Shown here: one piece after another, positions 1 to 9,426 of the stretch
Layout of the letters: each line of letters starts with the position of its first letter
Position numbering within the stretch: the first letter of the stretch is position 1
Origin: a virus
Length of the DNA: 25,308 bases
IMG/VR virus record: IMGVR_UViG_3300006875_000148
Coordinates: 1-25,308 of that record
Direction: 5' to 3' (one strand)
Position numbers and translations under genes: made by a program
Notes under the pieces: generated by a model
Seen by the model: the letters and a program-made list of their open reading frames with translations, nothing else
Told to the model about the DNA's origin: nothing
The model's database searches: none

Positions 1-528
1 TCCATTTGAAGTGCTAAGTCCAACTTGTTCAAAATAAATTCCGTCTCTATCATCAAAATATCCAGTTCTTTTAGTTGCATTTTGTTGAGGTGCATAAAAA
101 TTAAAAGAACTAAAAATTAACTGTCCTTTTCCTGGTTGATAATTATGATAAAACTTTGTTTGGTGAATACTAAATGCAGTAGATCCAATACCAGTTTGAA
201 GTCTTGCTGCTGCCTGATTTTGTATAAATATTACTGTTGATCCTGCACCAGAAACACTATCCAAAAAGTTTGGGTCAATGGCATAAAGGTGCTTATAGTC
301 ACCAAGAGTAAATAATTCAGAAACTCTTGCTCTACCAAATGCATCAACAGCATTTGTATCTGGATTAATAGTTACAACAGTCTCTGATGATATTCCAACA
401 GTTCCGGTGACTGGAAATGGATTTTGTGGACTAATTATTTGCCCATCACTTGATGCAACGCCTACAACTTCAAAAAGAGATCTTTCCTGATTTAAATAAT
501 CTTGTGTAGTTATATTCCACTGAGCCAT
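1..528 (-). CDS. Virion structural protein, N-terminal 176 residues (truncated by window edge)
   Basis: The frame opens with ATG at 528 (MAQWNITTQDYLNQ) and stays open for 176 codons to the window edge, so the C-terminus is missing. Visible motifs are AFGRARVSELFTLGDY around residues 60-75, a YQPGKGQ segment near 135, and KRTGYFDDRDGIYFEQ near 153-168. From memory, this pattern (AFGRxRVS, then YQPGK, then RxGYFDxxxGIxFE) belongs to a family of marine phage virion proteins of unknown exact role. The start codon overlaps the stop of the 105-residue gene as TAATG, so the two are probably translationally coupled. It lies after gp67 and the gp68-position gene, where T4 would proceed to the gene 21 protease. 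A head or head-surface protein is possible but not shown. Confidence 0.7.
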   Translation of the reverse strand, partial: MAQWNITTQDYLNQERSLFEVVGVASSDGQIISPQNPFPVTGTVGISSETVVTINPDTNAVDAFGRARVSELFTLGDYKHLYAIDPNFLDSVSGAGSTVIFIQNQAAARLQTGIGSTAFSIHQTKFYHNYQPGKGQLIFSSFNFYAPQQNATKRTGYFDDRDGIYFEQVGLSTSNG

Positions 529-845
529 TAATCAATCCATTCCAATTTTGACGGGTGATATCTTTGTGCGTTTTTGATGTTTAAATTTTTTTCTAAAACA
601 GGATAGATTTGATGAACAACTGCTCCGGGATAATTGGATTGTAATTGTTCACCAAGTTCTCTTGTGGAAGGAATTCCGTTTTTAGTAACCATTTCTAAAC
701 GATATAAGCTTCCATTCCACATTACATCGGCAACATACTCTTCACCAACTTGTTGTTGTTCTGGTTGAGAATTTACATAAAGATTTCCTGTAAAATCTCC
801 AGCAATATTGATTGATTCTGAAATAAATTGCTTATAGGATTTCAT
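528..845 (-). CDS. Putative internal head protein with capsid-targeting-like N-terminus (gp68 position)
   Basis: This 105-residue protein starts MKSYKQFISE. That matches in length and pattern the 10-residue capsid-targeting sequence of the T4 internal proteins (MKTYQEFIAE), which the prohead protease gp21 cuts after Glu10. ISE fits the gp21 (I/L)-x-E cleavage rule. The mature part (about residues 38-78) contains VMWNGSLYRLEM and EQLQSNYPGAVV, and resembles residues 411-452 of the 555-residue protein at 7607-9274. The gene follows gp67, where T4 carries prohead-core gene 68, but no sequence likeness to gp68 is evident. ATG at 845 overlaps the gp67 stop as ATGA. A Shine-Dalgarno-like GAGGA lies inside the acidic codons of gp67. 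Packaging into the head is inferred; the function is unknown. Confidence 0.85.
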   Translation of the reverse strand: MKSYKQFISESINIAGDFTGNLYVNSQPEQQQVGEEYVADVMWNGSLYRLEMVTKNGIPSTRELGEQLQSNYPGAVVHQIYPVLEKNLNIKNAQRYHPSKLEWID

Positions 846-1021
846 TCTTCCTCTTCGTAATCTTCCTCACCTTCTTCATCTTGTCCAAACATACTTGCCG
901 CTACTGCTGGACGGAAAGCATCAATTTTTTCTGCTGATTTAGAAAATAGTATATCTTTAATCTTATCACTGATCTGCGATGGTGGTTCATCAGCGATAAT
1001 CATATCCAAAAGGTCATCCAT
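842..1021 (-). CDS. g67: Prohead core protein gp67-like
   Basis: This 59-residue protein starts MDDLLDMIIADEPPSQISDK, continues with IKDILFSKSAEKIDAFRP, and ends in a strongly acidic tail (residues 48-59 are nearly all Glu/Asp). T4 gp67 (PIP) is a small prohead scaffold-core protein with the same layout: a short helical N-terminal part and an acidic tail, encoded just after the portal gene. T4 gp67 is about 80 residues, so this one is shorter. The gene sits directly after g20, with a late promoter motif overlapping the g20 stop. Its stop overlaps the next start as ATGA. The call rests on position, the acidic tail and resemblance to marine-phage gp67 homologues. Confidence 0.8.
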   Translation of the reverse strand: MDDLLDMIIADEPPSQISDKIKDILFSKSAEKIDAFRPAVAASMFGQDEEGEEDYEEEE

Positions 1022-1045: not shown

Positions 1046-1053
1046 TATTTATA
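1046..1053 (-). promoter_or_regulatory. Late promoter motif TATAAATA upstream of g67
   Basis: The minus strand reads TATAAATA here, identical to the T4 late promoter -10 box, 24 bases before the g67 ATG at 1021. It overlaps the g20 stop codon (ATA TAA ATA). Promoter activity is inferred from motif and position. Confidence 0.6.
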
Positions 1054-2731
1054 TCTCACCACCCTTGGGCATTTGTGGTGCTTTTATTCCTGGGGCTTCG
1101 GTTGCTGCTCCCTGTGATTCCAAATCTGGTTCCATTACTGGTTGACCCAAATCCATTTGAGATGATTGGTCTAATGGCATACCTGTTGCTGGATCTACCG
1201 GAGCATTTGGATCTGGAATAAGACCATCTTTAATTTCTTTTTCTATTAGAGCATCTTGCTCAAGAATTTCAACATCGGTTTGGCGAAGAATCTTTCTTCT
1301 TACATAATCTTGAGAGAAATATTTTCCAACATATGGTTCGGCAACTTGAACCATATTAAGTCTCTCAGTCATTAACTCAGCATCTTTTAATTCTGAGAAA
1401 TGATTATCATAAAGGAAATCATATTGAATATGCTCGCTCATTATTTCCCAATCTTCTGGGGTAATAATGTTTTTGAGAATTAACTGAGTTCTCAACATAT
1501 CATTAAACATATTTGAGAATCTCTTTCTCAAACGTCCAACAAATTTTGTAAACTTAAGTTCGTCTCTTAAAATCTCAGAAGAACGACCTAAGTTAAATCC
1601 ACCTTCACCATCCATTCTTGATGGAGGAACATTCAGTGAACGATATAGTTTTTTCTTAAAATATTCAATATCAGTGATCTCTCCAAGATTTTGACCACCA
1701 GGAAGTGTGGTGATTTCGGTTCCTCTACCACCTTCACGACGAGGGAGCCAGAAATCTTCAAGCATTGCCATATACTTTTTATCATCACGAATTTCGCCAG
1801 TGTTAGCGTCATACACTAACTTATTACGATAACGCATCATAACATCACGGAGATATTGCTCTGCTTTGACCTTGGGTAGATTGCCAACATCAATATAGAA
1901 AATTCTACGCTCAGGAGCACGAGATAATCTATAGATAACCAGTGAATCTTCAATCATGCGGAGCTGATTAAGAGACTTGATTGCTTTGTGAAGATATGAA
2001 AGAGTATTTCCCTTATTTCTATCTACTAATCCTGATGTACAATATGTAATAGAGTCTTTGGACATTTTAATTCCTTGACTCGCACCAGTAGCGTTTATGT
2101 TTCCTGTTGGTTGAGATCCTTTCGGATTATAGATAAAATATTCTTCAATATCAGGAAAGCTATAATCCATTGGATTATCACTTTGGATTTTTGAAATATT
2201 AAATCTATCTTCTGGCTTCTTTTTATTCTGTCTAACATAACGCATCTTCATTGCGTCAATATAACGCAACTCTTGAATTCCGTCTTGGGGATTTTTTAAA
2301 TCAATTACTTTATGATAGTAAAGTCTACCATCAACATACCAATTTCTATAAATTTCGTGAGACTTTTTATCAAAATCCAGTAAATCTAGAACGAATTTGA
2401 ATTCTTGTCTGATTTTCTTTTTAATCCCATCGCTAGCATTTAAATTATCTAAATCTATTTGGACGGGAGTATCATTTGTATCTGATACAATTGCTTCATT
2501 TACAATGTCTTCAATAGCACTATCAACTTCTGGATGAAGTGCCATTTCTCTATATCTTTTGATTAATTCATATTCAGTTCTATAAACACCCTCAATATCT
2601 ACATAGGAACCAAAAAAACCACTACTCATGTAGTGGTCAACCCCGTCCTCGTTGTTTTGAGGAACAGGGGAGACTACTCCAGGAGATAGTGGCTCATTAT
2701 CTTCTATAGAAAATCCAAATAACTTTGCCAT
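1049..2731 (-). CDS. g20: Portal vertex protein gp20
   Basis: This 560-residue protein matches T4 gp20 (524 residues) along its length. Shared segments include YEVD/HPEVD-type N-terminal text, WYVDGRLYYHKVID, SGLVDRNKG, YLHKAIKSLNQLRMIEDSLV, IYRLSRAPERRIFYIDVGN, LVYDANTGEI, MLEDFWLPRREGG and TTLPGGQNLGEI. The portal is a dodecameric ring at one head vertex. It nucleates prohead assembly, docks the gp16/gp17 terminase for DNA entry and later carries the neck. The C-terminal 60 residues are rich in Pro, Gln and Asp/Glu, an extension relative to T4. The ATG at 2731 follows a 36-base gap after g19, with a NATAAATA motif overlapping the g19 stop. The gene is intact and unambiguous. Confidence 0.97.
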   Translation of the reverse strand: MAKLFGFSIEDNEPLSPGVVSPVPQNNEDGVDHYMSSGFFGSYVDIEGVYRTEYELIKRYREMALHPEVDSAIEDIVNEAIVSDTNDTPVQIDLDNLNASDGIKKKIRQEFKFVLDLLDFDKKSHEIYRNWYVDGRLYYHKVIDLKNPQDGIQELRYIDAMKMRYVRQNKKKPEDRFNISKIQSDNPMDYSFPDIEEYFIYNPKGSQPTGNINATGASQGIKMSKDSITYCTSGLVDRNKGNTLSYLHKAIKSLNQLRMIEDSLVIYRLSRAPERRIFYIDVGNLPKVKAEQYLRDVMMRYRNKLVYDANTGEIRDDKKYMAMLEDFWLPRREGGRGTEITTLPGGQNLGEITDIEYFKKKLYRSLNVPPSRMDGEGGFNLGRSSEILRDELKFTKFVGRLRKRFSNMFNDMLRTQLILKNIITPEDWEIMSEHIQYDFLYDNHFSELKDAELMTERLNMVQVAEPYVGKYFSQDYVRRKILRQTDVEILEQDALIEKEIKDGLIPDPNAPVDPATGMPLDQSSQMDLGQPVMEPDLESQGAATEAPGIKAPQMPKGGEI

Positions 2732-5702: not shown

Positions 5703-5933
5703 TTACCAGTCAGGATATTCCCACTTATCAAGAACTCTACTAACCATTCTACTGGTGACAACTCTTTTAATTGTGCAATCTTTACACTCATATGAATAAG
5801 AAGAAGAAACAGCTCCTCTATCTTTACGTGTTCTATAAAAACTGTCTATTAGATTTTTAGTTTCTCCACAAACTCTACACCTTCTATCAACAAGCAACAA
5901 ATGACCTAAGTTTATCTGCTTGTCTATTTCCAT
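5703..5933 (-). CDS. Small four-cysteine zinc-finger protein downstream of g17
   Basis: This 76-residue protein has two CxxC pairs, Cys19/Cys22 (CRVC) and Cys50/Cys53 (CKDC), separated by 27 residues, the layout of a zinc ribbon or treble clef. Between them lies IDSFYRTRKDRG, and a basic stretch (TIKRVVTSRMVSRV) follows. The ATG at 5933 forms a TAATG overlap with the g17 stop and has GGGAG 8 bases upstream. An in-frame GTG at 5948 would add five residues but has no comparable site. The Cys/basic layout resembles zinc-binding parts of phage HNH-type or transcription-related proteins. No HNH catalytic histidines are visible, so I call only a zinc-binding protein. Coupling to g17 hints at a late role. 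Confidence 0.82.
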   Translation of the reverse strand: MEIDKQINLGHLLLVDRRCRVCGETKNLIDSFYRTRKDRGAVSSSYSYECKDCTIKRVVTSRMVSRVLDKWEYPDW

Positions 5934-7588
5934 TACCTGTACTCCCACATATATGCCATGTCACCATACTCATCAGTAAACCATCTATCTCCACTAGAAT
6001 CTACAAAGGTTTCTTCATCATTCATACCATCTACGATAAATCCAAATGGTGCCATGTCCTGTTCAATCTGATTTTTCTGCTCATCGTATATTCTCTTTCT
6101 TACGTCTTGATCTGTTAATTCTTTAAAATAGTCTTGAGCAACTAACCAAGCATATATTACTAAGCACATTGCTAGGTCGTCATTACAACCCTCTTCTGCC
6201 TCAAAAGAATTATGCTTTTGGACAAAAGTTGTCAATTCAGATATAATCTCATAATCTTTAAATATTAATTTATCTTCTTCAATAATAGTTTTTAAATTTA
6301 GAGATCCAACTTTTTTTACCGTCTTGGACATTTTAACTCCCAACTGAGTCTTCTTTCCAGAAAATCCTTGTCCAACTATTTGTCCAGCTCTACCTCTCAT
6401 AGAACACATTAAAACATTCTGATATTCCAAGTCATAATGAAGAAGTGATGCTACCTGATCACCTATATCATTAACCTCACATAAAATATAAGCACCATTA
6501 TAATTTTTTGCTACTTCATATATGATATTAGGAAATAGCATTGGTTTAATTTCATTATTCCTGTACTTTGCCACCACTTTATGTGGAAAGTTAGTTATAT
6601 CAACTACAACAAAAGCAGAATAATCTTCACTTACTCCTCTAGCAACATCAACAGTAATCACATAATCATGTTCATCTTGAACATCTTCATACACGTCTAG
6701 TCCGGCATTTCTTTTTAATGGATGATCGTATACTAGATTTCTAAGTTTGCTTGGAGCAATAAGTGTATCTACAGATCCTAGGAATTCGCATTCAAACTCA
6801 ACCTTAAATTGTTGCTCTGATGTATTGGCAATTGTTTGAGCTTTCCATGCCTCATCTCTTCCAGGAACTTCACTCCAATGAACATCGGTAAAGATATATT
6901 CATTTTTACCTTTCTCGGCATCATGCCACATTCGGTAAAAATGATTCATACCCTTTGGGGTAGAAACAATAATTACTTTTGTAGATTTACCTGAAGAAAT
7001 TGTTGGATATACTGAACTAAAGAAGTCATCCGCAATATGATTGGGGACAAACGCAAATTCGTCCAAAAAGATAATATTGAATGACATACCACGAACCGCA
7101 GAAGCAGAAGTAGAAGCAGCGAGGATTTTACTTCCGTTTTCCAATTCCAAGGAACCTTTGTTCCAAGAAATGATACCCTGCTGCATCCACTTTGGTAAGT
7201 TTTCATAAGCAGTTTGAAGTCTGTCTAATAGTTCTCTAGCAGTTGCTGCTTTGTTTGCAAGAATACCAATATTTACATTATCATTAAAAACTGCATAATG
7301 TAAAAGAAAAGATACTACAGTGGTAGATTTTCCCGTCTGGCGGGGCATCTTGCAAATATTAAATCTATTTTGGTGAAATCTATTTACAAGTTTTTCTTGA
7401 AATGGATACATCTTGAACGGTTGTAATCCATAGTCAAGGGTGACAATTTTTACATAATTTTTAGCAAAATATACCGGATCATCTTTACATTTAATAAACT
7501 CTTCAATTTGCTCCTGAGTAAACTCTATTGGAGTATTTGCTTTCTTTAAGAGTGGATTACCAAGGTAAATATCATTTCCATTTGACAT
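5933..7588 (-). CDS. g17: Terminase large subunit gp17 (packaging ATPase and nuclease)
   Basis: This 551-residue protein is the DNA-packaging motor docked on the portal. The N-terminal ATPase shows Walker A PRQTGKST (residues 82-89), Walker B NIIFLDEFAF (171-180, with D176 and catalytic E177) and coupling motif VSTPKG (209-213). The C-terminal RNase H-like nuclease, which cuts the concatemer, shows acidic residues in VDVARG (D314), CEVNDIGDQV (E371/D374) and CNDDLAMC (D470/D471), matching the T4 gp17 triad pattern. The T4 protein is 610 residues. ATG at 7588 is preceded by AAGAGGA at optimal spacing, 18 bases after the 555-residue gene. The stop overlaps the next start as TAATG. Unlike T4, the gene is not adjacent to g16. 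Confidence 0.97.
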   Translation of the reverse strand: MSNGNDIYLGNPLLKKANTPIEFTQEQIEEFIKCKDDPVYFAKNYVKIVTLDYGLQPFKMYPFQEKLVNRFHQNRFNICKMPRQTGKSTTVVSFLLHYAVFNDNVNIGILANKAATARELLDRLQTAYENLPKWMQQGIISWNKGSLELENGSKILAASTSASAVRGMSFNIIFLDEFAFVPNHIADDFFSSVYPTISSGKSTKVIIVSTPKGMNHFYRMWHDAEKGKNEYIFTDVHWSEVPGRDEAWKAQTIANTSEQQFKVEFECEFLGSVDTLIAPSKLRNLVYDHPLKRNAGLDVYEDVQDEHDYVITVDVARGVSEDYSAFVVVDITNFPHKVVAKYRNNEIKPMLFPNIIYEVAKNYNGAYILCEVNDIGDQVASLLHYDLEYQNVLMCSMRGRAGQIVGQGFSGKKTQLGVKMSKTVKKVGSLNLKTIIEEDKLIFKDYEIISELTTFVQKHNSFEAEEGCNDDLAMCLVIYAWLVAQDYFKELTDQDVRKRIYDEQKNQIEQDMAPFGFIVDGMNDEETFVDSSGDRWFTDEYGDMAYMWEYR

Positions 7589-7606: not shown

Positions 7607-9274
7607 TTAATTACAGTTCCAGCGACGAAGGGCTTTGTTGATTCTTGAATCTGGATCTCTTGCAGTTTCTGCAGAAGTCAGTCTCTTCTTCATTCCACTC
7701 ATTCTACTGCAGAAAGATTTGCGACGTGCTGCTCTTTTACCTGTTGGTTTTTTCTCAGTTACTGCTGTTTGAAGTTTTGAACCTGGATTCTCACTACGAT
7801 AGGCATCTACTGCTTTTTGGCTTAAACCATCAGTCTTATCCTTGCGGTTTACTGATTGCCAATCCTCCACTTGAAGAAAAGGTTCTCCAGGTTCTCTCTC
7901 AGATACTTTAGAGTAAATGACTTTTGCTCCTGGATAAACTTTTTGAATCTGCTCCTCAACTTCCTTTTTATTTGGAAGTTTGGCTTGAGGAAAAAACATT
8001 TTAAGAGAATAACTTTTTCCTCTCCACATCGCAATAACCATCATTAAATTTCCAGTTTTTGCTTGAATTCTAGTTGCTTCATCAACTTGGGATTTAAACC
8101 CTTTGATTGGTTCTGGTTTAATCAGATCAATAACTTCAGCGAAAGTATTTCCATCGGCATCTTCAATAGTTACATCTTCTTTTTTAACACAACGATTATA
8201 CTTTTTACCAAACAATTTTTGAGTTCCTTTCTTTTCATATCCAGACCAACATTTCATTTCTTCCATTTCTCCACCATTAACATAATCTGCTGCTGTATCA
8301 ATATAATCTGCTGCCTTGGTAATTTTTGACTGTACCCATGCTTCCAAATTTCCTTCGCCATTGGAAACTTTTGTTTTGAGTCTTCTAACAGCATCAACAA
8401 TCGTATTTAACTCGGAACGAGCCATTGAATATTCCTCATCTTTTACTGAGACTTTATCCCAAGCTTTGGCACCATAAGAGCATTCCGATCTTGTTTCTCT
8501 TTTAGCACATAATGGGCAATATCTTTCTTCTTCGTGCATATGCATTTCCTCAGTCTTAGTTCCCCAGTTAGCAGCACCTACCTTACGACACTTAACAAGT
8601 GCTCCAGAAGCATATGCACTTGGCCAAACGTCATAACGTGATTTCACTTTATTGTAGCAAGCATCTTTTTTGCCACTGCCCTTACCTGGTTTATCTTTTA
8701 CTTCTTGTAGGTCCATTTCTTCAGTTCTTACGTTAGTTGGTTTTGCTCCACCAAACTTTTCTGGTTGGTTGGGATCTAAACGATTTTTTCTTATTCTTGC
8801 TGTCTCTTCTTCTTCTGACGATAGATTTGCTGCCATCTTAGAGCTTCCACATTTTGGTGTAGAAGTTTGTCCAGGTTGGCGAGCGCATGGTTTACCAGCC
8901 CATTTGCCGCCAAGTTGAACCCAACCAGATTTTCCATCAGAAGATTTTGACTTCCCAAACCAATCTCTAAGACCTTCATCTCCAGATTTTGTTTCCTCAT
9001 ATGCCAAACCCCTTTTTGTGTGCTTAAGCTCCCCTTTTTGTTTAGCAATAAGTTTTCTTGAAGCAACTTCTGCTCCCACTGGAGCACTCGTTACATTTTC
9101 ATCTGGAGTTTTTTTACTTGGTTTATCATAAATGTCAACATCCCCATCAGCATCACGGTCAACATATTGAACTGTTGCGTGATGTACTAATTGTTTCAAA
9201 TCTAAATTAGGATCCAACTGATGTTGTTTTCCTTTTAGATGTGGTGTTTTGTGTGAGAATTTGGGGTATTTCAT
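7607..9274 (-). CDS. 555-residue multi-module cysteine/basic protein between the terminase genes
   Basis: The function is not recognised. Modules in order: an EF-hand-like loop DRDADGDVDIYD (39-50); a WFGKSKSSDGKSGW...GGKWAGKPCARQPGQ block with Cys130 and Cys142 (about 100-180); a GKKDACYNKVKSRYDVWPSA block with ASGALVKCRKVGA (201-234); CPLC (253-256) plus Cys265; a helical segment with VQSKITKAADYIDTAADYV (314-332); KCWSGYEKKG...NRCVKKE (341-366); a domain at 411-472 (AMWRGKSYSLKMFFPQ, EQIQKVYPGAKV) shared with the 105-residue protein at 528-845; and a basic C-terminus, RRKSFCSRMSGMKKRL and ARDPDSRINKALRRWNC (517-554). Similar modules recur in marine T4-like phage proteins. The start at 9274 overlaps the 51-residue gene as ATGA. 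The position suggests a packaging, head or internal-protein role, but this is unproven. Confidence 0.9.
   Translation of the reverse strand: MKYPKFSHKTPHLKGKQHQLDPNLDLKQLVHHATVQYVDRDADGDVDIYDKPSKKTPDENVTSAPVGAEVASRKLIAKQKGELKHTKRGLAYEETKSGDEGLRDWFGKSKSSDGKSGWVQLGGKWAGKPCARQPGQTSTPKCGSSKMAANLSSEEEETARIRKNRLDPNQPEKFGGAKPTNVRTEEMDLQEVKDKPGKGSGKKDACYNKVKSRYDVWPSAYASGALVKCRKVGAANWGTKTEEMHMHEEERYCPLCAKRETRSECSYGAKAWDKVSVKDEEYSMARSELNTIVDAVRRLKTKVSNGEGNLEAWVQSKITKAADYIDTAADYVNGGEMEEMKCWSGYEKKGTQKLFGKKYNRCVKKEDVTIEDADGNTFAEVIDLIKPEPIKGFKSQVDEATRIQAKTGNLMMVIAMWRGKSYSLKMFFPQAKLPNKKEVEEQIQKVYPGAKVIYSKVSEREPGEPFLQVEDWQSVNRKDKTDGLSQKAVDAYRSENPGSKLQTAVTEKKPTGKRAARRKSFCSRMSGMKKRLTSAETARDPDSRINKALRRWNCN
9125..9160 (-). 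other. EF-hand/dockerin-like calcium-binding loop in the 555-residue protein
   Basis: Residues 39-50 read DRDADGDVDIYD. Asp at loop positions 1, 3 and 5, Gly at 6, a hydrophobic residue at 8 and an acid at 12 fit the canonical 12-residue EF-hand loop. Calcium binding is inferred from the pattern only. The flanking helices are not obvious, so a dockerin or thrombospondin-type single loop is also possible. Confidence 0.55.
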
Positions 9275-9426
9275 TCAACTGGTTTTGATTTGGTCTCTTC
9301 ACCTTTTGCTCTTTTTCTTCTCGCTGCACAATGAGCGCGTTGAGAAAATCCTTTCGGATTTGAGCAGTCAATACTCTTTTTATATTTATTAGTCCACTCC
9401 TCTTGAAACTGTTTAAACGTTTTCAT
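9271..9426 (-). CDS. 51-residue cysteine/basic small protein with MKTFKQF N-terminus
   Basis: ATG at 9426 opens a 51-codon frame ending TGA at 9271. The protein starts MKTFKQFQEE, continues KSIDCSNPKGFSQRAHCAAR (18-37) and ends in a basic, then Lys/Glu-rich tail. Cys21 and Cys33 sit in a compact module rich in Arg and Lys. The first ten residues resemble the T4 capsid-targeting sequence (MKTYQEFIAE) and the N-terminus of the 105-residue protein, but no (I/L)-x-E cleavage site is formed. The gene overlaps the end of g16 by 14 bases and the 555-residue gene by ATGA. Both overlaps support a real coupled gene, although no clear Shine-Dalgarno is visible. The function is unknown; DNA binding or packaging with the head is possible. 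Confidence 0.75.
   Translation of the reverse strand: MKTFKQFQEEWTNKYKKSIDCSNPKGFSQRAHCAARRKRAKGEETKSKPVE

Follow-up and report, generated by a model that had tools for sequence, protein, structure and literature searches.

A T4-type capsid-targeting leader on p105, a candidate head-internal protein of T4-like cyanophages

Results

The p105 locus

The window, by which we mean the whole stretch of DNA analysed here, is a 25.3 kb virus record whose minus strand carries a T4-like morphogenesis block. Among the genes there are those of the terminase small subunit, of a 51-aa ORF and of a 555-aa DUF6321 protein, then gp17, an endonuclease VII-like ORF, gp18, gp19, gp20, a 59-aa ORF and p105, past which a virion structural gene begins; the names gp18 and gp19 come from gene order plus sequence matches. 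The endonuclease VII-like ORF is small (5703–5948, minus strand; PHROG 4723, E 6.7e-35) and lies between gp17 and gp18. The portal protein gp20 (1049–2731, minus strand; Pfam PF07230, E 6.9e-195) is followed by the acidic ORF of 59 amino acids (842–1021, minus strand; PHROG 14164), which stands at the gp67 position and is given that name by position only. Its stop codon overlaps the p105 ATG at 845 (ATGA). The p105 ORF (528–845, minus strand) encodes 105 amino acids and matches PHROG 1742 (E 4e-39, residues 1–99 against positions 1–99 of the 108 in the profile); the Pfam search returned no family matching it. Downstream of p105 only the 5' part of the virion structural protein gene is present (1–528, minus strand; PHROG 1645). 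A tblastn search found p105 matches in 137 phage records, 117 of them Synechococcus phages, 18 named Cyanophage and two Prochlorococcus phages. The sequence-only reading of this DNA had spoken of a marine phage, which is not established: the window is an IMG/VR fragment and its named relatives are marine, estuarine, lake and reservoir isolates.

A T4-type leader at the N-terminus of p105

The N-terminus of p105 is MKSYKQFISE|S, its first ten codons lying at 816–845 (minus strand). In the T4 record MKTYQEFIAE|A opens both IPII and IPIII, while IPI has a related but longer leader, MKTFKEFTSTTTPVSTITE|A. The sequence-only reading had named IPI and IPIII as examples of T4 carriers of the ten-residue form; this holds for IPIII, and for IPII too, but is inexact for IPI because of its longer variant. 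In T4, genetics ties targeting mainly to residues 4 and 7 and processing to residues 8 and 10; the cleavage rule of gp21, the prohead protease, is L/I-x-E (PMC9026906). The ISE of p105 conforms to this rule, as that reading had said, and predicts a cut between Glu10 (816–818) and Ser11 (813–815, minus strand), which would leave a mature protein of 95 residues (531–815, minus strand). Besides the leader, the only (I/L)-x-E site in p105 is LGE at residues 64–66.

Could the likeness be due to chance, or could the segment be a plain N-terminal helix that plays no part in targeting? It is short, the alignment of the p105 family profile with T4 IPI by hhalign is weak and covers only residues 1–14 of each (E 0.0026, probability 11.7%), and p105 is so far not among the reported virion proteins. 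Against this, a 30-base degenerate leader pattern matches the window once and none of 100 shuffles, the chance of a leader estimated from composition is 2.4e-5 for about 26 genes, and the leader is confined to the starts of ORFs: past residue 12, the motif core was found 0 times in 75,589 and 78,205 residues from six-frame ORFs of at least 100 aa of S-SCSM1 and S-SZBM1. Since the leader also occurs on unrelated virion proteins detected by mass spectrometry (MS; below), we consider chance likeness very improbable. The identification of a T4-type capsid-targeting leader with a predicted gp21 site on p105, which is the central claim of the sequence-only reading, is well supported by these figures and by the retention of the segment in homologues.

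Another ORF of the window, the basic 51-aa ORF (9271–9426, minus strand), opens with MKTFKQFQEEW, in which F4 and F7 are present and a hydrophobic residue 8 is absent. Its product is possibly targeted without being trimmed. Contigs in which this ORF recurs include L005, L018 and L036.

Conservation of the leader

The conservation argument rests on two sets of sequences. The first is an alignment of 16 sequences, the window and 15 isolates, the latter being those of the 137 matching records taken with a full-length homologue. A weak match in S-SCSM2R lies outside this set; S-PRM1 was excluded from the alignment, its match being a 704-aa protein in which the domain is present and the leader absent; and four residues upstream of the Met were trimmed from Syn33_106, whose annotated start lies further 5'. 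The second set came from an IMG/VR query with p105 residues 26–105, which omits the leader and was chosen to avoid bias. A count of 96/96 leaders is biased, because the search patterns that produced it contained the leader, and the claim does not rest on it.

All 16 aligned sequences show M-[KR]-[STN]-[FY]-x-x-F-[ILM]-x-E-S, and mean column entropy rises from 0.62 over residues 1–11 to 0.76 over residues 12–24 and 1.34 over residues 25–105. The body-only query found at least 595 relatives (in at least 600 stretches), and the leader is present in all of the best 80, with F/Y4, F7, I/L/M8 and E10 in 80/80. Homologues devoid of the leader, which the sequence-only reading had named as evidence against itself, were sought, and the leader proved to be present both in these best 80 and in the 15 isolates. 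Aromatic residues at positions 4 and 7, and E10, are thus found in 16/16 and 80/80 sequences. Residue 8 is Ile in the window; a Met at this position, off the strict I/L, occurs in 4/16 and 3/80. The conserved positions 4, 7, 8 and 10 are those that T4 genetics needs, so that p105 fits, except for Met8 in some relatives. At the DNA level, 43 distinct leader sequences show 127 synonymous and 58 nonsynonymous codon differences from the window; residues 1, 2, 3, 7 and 10 are invariant while codons 2, 3, 7 and 10 vary. In one homologue (L217, 373–798) about 36 extra, mostly basic residues separate leader and body, and the leader is still N-terminal.

Other proteins that carry the leader

The sequence-only reading had proposed that further N-termini of this form should exist; they were found in cyanophage genomes, while in the window the strict pattern occurs only once. 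Sixteen whole cyanophage genomes gave 25 matches to the strict pattern, 13 in p105 and 12 in other genes (the p105 of Sf-FS3, S-SKS1 and S-PRM1 gave no match in this search), and 19 long p105-holding IMG/VR contigs gave 35, 19 in p105 and 16 in others; the reversed control gave 0 in both cases. Apart from the cytidylyltransferase/NMNAT, these other carriers include a glucosaminidase (E 8.8e-17), a DUF6321 protein (E 1e-23), a HiPIP-like protein (E 6.2e-5), a second p105-like protein (L110; PHROG 1742, E 4.8e-5) and basic proteins. The cytidylyltransferase is present in 16/16 isolate genomes searched and carries the leader in 14, in a shortened form in S-SZBM1 (MRFRQFIIEA), from a GTG in Sf-FS3 and in a separate short frame in S-SKS1; it lacks the leader in S-CAM9 and S-PRM1. 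In L349 (contig G014:19877, plus strand) the leader is fused to an S-adenosylmethionine (SAM) lyase domain (PF23780, E 1.4e-14), which makes this protein a candidate injected anti-restriction enzyme. It recalls the SAM hydrolase found in S-CREM2 virions.

A stricter pattern run on IMG/VR hit at least 120 stretches, of which 87 matches in 80 loci are listed. Among these listed matches 74 of the 75 closed ORFs are at least 50 aa long, all 74 start near the first possible start, and in every one the open frame ahead of the motif ATG is shorter than 30 codons. This restriction of the leader to ORF starts counts against chance likeness. Judging by their likeness to IPIII (L436), some of the listed matches come from T4-like enterobacterial phages, and p105 accounts for two. 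At E 1e-4, Pfam assigned these 74 ORFs to DUF5661 (5), DUF6321 (4), cytidylyltransferase (4), lytic transglycosylase-like (3), DUF6267 (1) and two GNAT families (1 each), the rest matching no family.

Some loci deserve separate mention. L360 (contig G009:79736–81555) holds four tandem leader genes, three of them basic and one weakly GNAT-like with a match below the Pfam cut-off, and resembles the tandem ip genes of T4. In L361 (11488–11949, contig G002) the leader is on a protein that looks ADP-ribosyltransferase-like by eye and recalls T4 Alt; similar proteins occur in L370, L376 and L405. The L361 protein has no Pfam or PHROGs match, and the structure predicted for the ADP-ribosyltransferase-like cargo, with a mean pLDDT of 49.8, does not confirm the likeness. 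In T4 itself gp61.1 (L486; NC_000866 18966–19130, minus strand), a hypothetical protein of 54 aa, opens with MKTFKEFIKED and adjoins 61.2 (adfA, against DarT toxins). By its N-terminus gp61.1 is a candidate for a further T4 internal protein.

Virion proteomes

Published virion proteomes include the cytidylyltransferase for S-SCSM1 (PMC9602691), S-SZBM1 (PMC9146016, Table 1) and S-CREM2 (PMC10665884), the three phages in which we checked its leader. It was also detected in S-SM1 virions as T4-GC190 (PMC3037559), to which the Syn33 record links this family, and is cited for virions of S-CBWM1. In S-CREM2, leader-like N-termini are borne by four MS-detected proteins: SAM hydrolase (MKDFDSFLEE), an APH-like kinase (VKRFDAFLTE), gp13 (MKDLHSFLTE) and the cytidylyltransferase (MKNFSSFLTE). 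A relaxed pattern applied to the whole S-CREM2 genome matches exactly three ORFs, all three in the 52-protein virion list, with a chance probability of about 0.013 if 218 CDS are assumed. The argument rests on this whole-genome result and not on hand-picked S-CREM2 genes, among which 4/22 MS proteins match versus 0/16 others. In T4 the relaxed pattern finds IPII, IPIII and gp61.1, and none in the reversed control. Over the three cyanophages searched with the relaxed pattern, 4/6 matching ORFs are MS-detected or labelled virion protein, and both misses are p105.

In S-SCSM1 the orthologue of p105 is SSCSM1_30, which is labelled hypothetical in a record that labels both its neighbours (29 and 31) virion protein; 48 CDS carry this label there versus 45 proteins in the paper. 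Table 1 of the S-SZBM1 paper (30 entries; PMC9146016) holds no 105-aa entry for p105, which is number 191 by inference, while the p105 structural neighbour of 424 aa matches an entry by length. The orthologues of both phages have usable tryptic peptides, and small size alone does not account for the missing p105, because proteins of 61–93 aa are labelled virion in S-SCSM1. Possible reasons are a low copy number, loss as the head matures, or limited depth of the data. Since both virion data sets lack the orthologues, the proposal of the sequence-only reading that p105 is packaged and possibly injected is, for this protein, an inference.

Two side observations belong here. In S-SZBM1 a 165-aa gene immediately upstream of p105 (gp084; NC_070839 122628–123125, minus strand) opens with MKTFKQYITEA and has a DUF6321-like sequence; it is absent from the virion table of that phage (PMC9146016). 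S-SCSM1 gene 93 and S-CREM2 gp12 (Cas9-like), virion-detected or so labelled, have leader-like C-terminal ends, KKKRTFKEFLEYIE and KTFRDFLN respectively; in T4, the C-terminus of Alt undergoes processing (PMC9026906).

Gene neighbourhood of p105

The genes that follow the structural gene lie past the edge of the window. In L005, a contig with an identical p105, tblastn and ORFs place a structural gene and a 181-aa ORF after p105, then gp21, gp22 and gp23; gp21, expected in the genes next to p105, is thus the third gene past it. The gp23 of L005 contains GSFLTEA, the same letters as T4 gp23 around residue 65, the cut site at which the T4 protein loses its 65-residue propeptide. More generally, we compared two overlapping sets of 80 loci each, one from a leader-containing pattern and the other from the body-only query. 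Going upstream from p105, the first gene recognised is the gp67-position ORF in 80/80 and 73/80 loci respectively, and a structural gene (PHROG 1645 or SSCSM1_31 type) comes next downstream in 77/80 and 78/80, the remaining five loci ending within 30 bases of p105. gp21 was found further downstream in 49/80 and 45/80, many loci being too short. In the isolates examined gp17 is found downstream of the p105 pair, either immediately or after a few intervening genes, and in contigs L209, L210 and L217 p105 adjoins a DUF6321 protein and gp17. The gp68 position of p105, pointed out by the sequence-only reading, therefore stands for the window's lineage; it is lineage-specific and gives no clue to the identity of p105. 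We accordingly rejected gene position as a guide to what p105 is, as well as homology to gp68 (hhalign probability 0.1).

This neighbourhood bears on two alternatives. p105 might be a partner or chaperone of the adjoining virion structural protein and use its leader-like segment for that purpose, as the near-constant presence of the structural gene could suggest. We find this quite improbable, since two types of partner occur, which the searches did not join, and since the leader is also found on proteins away from such a neighbour, for example the cytidylyltransferase. Alternatively p105 might be a transient prohead core or assembly protein like T4 gp67 and gp68, leader-targeted, cleaved by gp21 and eliminated before packaging or in the course of it. 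Its place between gp67 and gp21 in the window's lineage, its absence from the two virion data sets and its second LxE (L64 in 16/16 sequences, E66 in 14/16) all go in this direction, but the core position is not conserved, p105 has no similarity to gp68, and, whereas T4 gp22, gp68 and gp67 have 16, 5 and 3 gp21 sites, p105 has one beyond the leader, inside a predicted helix. We judge this second alternative unlikely, though less so than the first.

The body of p105

AlphaFold2 models mature p105 as a small alpha/beta domain (whole protein: mean pLDDT 71.6, pTM 0.46). Means of ten-residue blocks are 75–91 for residues 31–80 and values fall below 50 for residues 5–15 and 22–31; the model has a beta-beta-alpha-beta core (residues about 33–82), with the leader and much of 5–31 poorly ordered, an appearance that would suit a cleavable tail. 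Mature p105 has 7 K/R versus 11 D/E and is not basic. A p105-like domain occupies codons 414–452 of the 555-aa DUF6321 protein of the window (7919–8035, minus strand; hhalign probability 92.6, E 4.5e-7), where it is internal and the leader is absent. The DUF6321 proteins of cyanophages (PHROG 727) are larger than p105 and contain a domain homologous to its body. A p105-like domain is also present in SSCSM1_29, labelled virion protein, and the single-domain DUF6321 protein S-CREM1_179 carries the leader. A viral fold library returned seven entries at E ≤0.001: a family member, DUF6321 proteins, an S-SCSM1 virion protein and unnamed ones. Among solved structures the highest-scoring match, still a weak one with Z 4.9 and an rmsd of 2.3 over 50 residues, is to T7 Gp2 in its complex with RNA polymerase, and just behind it come ribosomal proteins, phi29 p6 and phycobilisome linkers. 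Fold was rejected as a guide to function, all matches to solved structures being below the level that indicates more than a common arrangement, and because of these weak scores we name no target for p105.

Discussion

In this work we analysed a small cyanophage protein, p105, which is a well-supported addition to the known class of proteins with a T4-type capsid-targeting sequence. We propose, with a probability of about 0.6, that it is a head-internal cargo protein of T4-like cyanophages whose leader acts in targeting. Phe/Tyr4 and Phe7 of the leader would dock the protein to the prohead core, gp21 would cut after Glu10, and the 95-residue domain would stay in the head. Most likely it would then enter the host together with the DNA, like the leader-bearing T4 internal proteins, and act there early. 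The steps of this proposal are not equally firm. That T4-type head targeting operates in cyanophages is very probable, because the leader sits on unrelated proteins of which several are virion-detected, and the targeting and cleavage of p105 are likely by analogy with T4 and with the other carriers. Retention in the mature head and injection are only plausible, with chances about even, and together with the target they are the least certain parts. Several observations count against the cargo reading: p105 is unreported in two virion data sets, its mature form is not basic as T4 internal proteins are, the second LxE could let gp21 destroy it, the IPI profile probability is low and some relatives have Met8.

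The comparison with known systems points to both likenesses and differences. Like p105, T4 IPI, IPII and IPIII are small proteins with an N-terminal M-K-[ST]-[FY]-x-x-F in a lineage that has gp21, and IPII and IPIII share with p105 the I-x-E at residues 8–10; p105 differs in having an unrelated body and in belonging to phages of Kyanoviridae. For the T4 proteins packaging, cutting and injection are established (PMC9026906, PMC12373910), whereas for p105 they are proposed here. T4 gp68 shares with p105 the position past gp67, in the window's lineage only, and its start has no such leader. The closest parallel within cyanophages is the virion cytidylyltransferase/NMNAT (T4-GC190), which has the same type of leader and co-occurs with p105 in 15/16 genomes. 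It is, unlike p105, an enzyme of about 290–440 residues found in virions of several phages, and the residue after its cut is Ala in most cases versus Ser in most p105.

Enzymes such as NMNAT, kinase and SAM hydrolase recur in cyanophage virion proteomes, whose authors were unable to separate true cargo from carry-over (PMC10665884, PMC9602691). A conserved T4-type leader on virion-detected enzymes offers both a mechanism and a direct test of cargo status. In T-even phages the leader search is established and yielded many ip genes, and the internal proteins block type IV restriction (PMC12373910). In cyanophages we recognised no report of the leader among the entries listed by a full-text search of mainly open-access literature, nor in passages of PMC5694885, and in PMC9026906 cyanophages appear in a reference title only.

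A broader reading, to which we give even odds, is that T4-like cyanophages use the leader as a general loading code to pack varied effectors in the head and inject them, p105 being among them as an early inhibitor of a host machine. At the same odds, such effectors would cover NAD synthesis, SAM hydrolysis against restriction, a kinase, ADP-ribosyltransferase-like and GNAT-like proteins, a cell-wall hydrolase, DUF6321 proteins and the p105 domain. If it is true, the leader would be a tag with which to list effectors genome-wide, and ten residues would predict which uncharacterised cyanophage proteins may enter the host first, candidate anti-defence proteins included.
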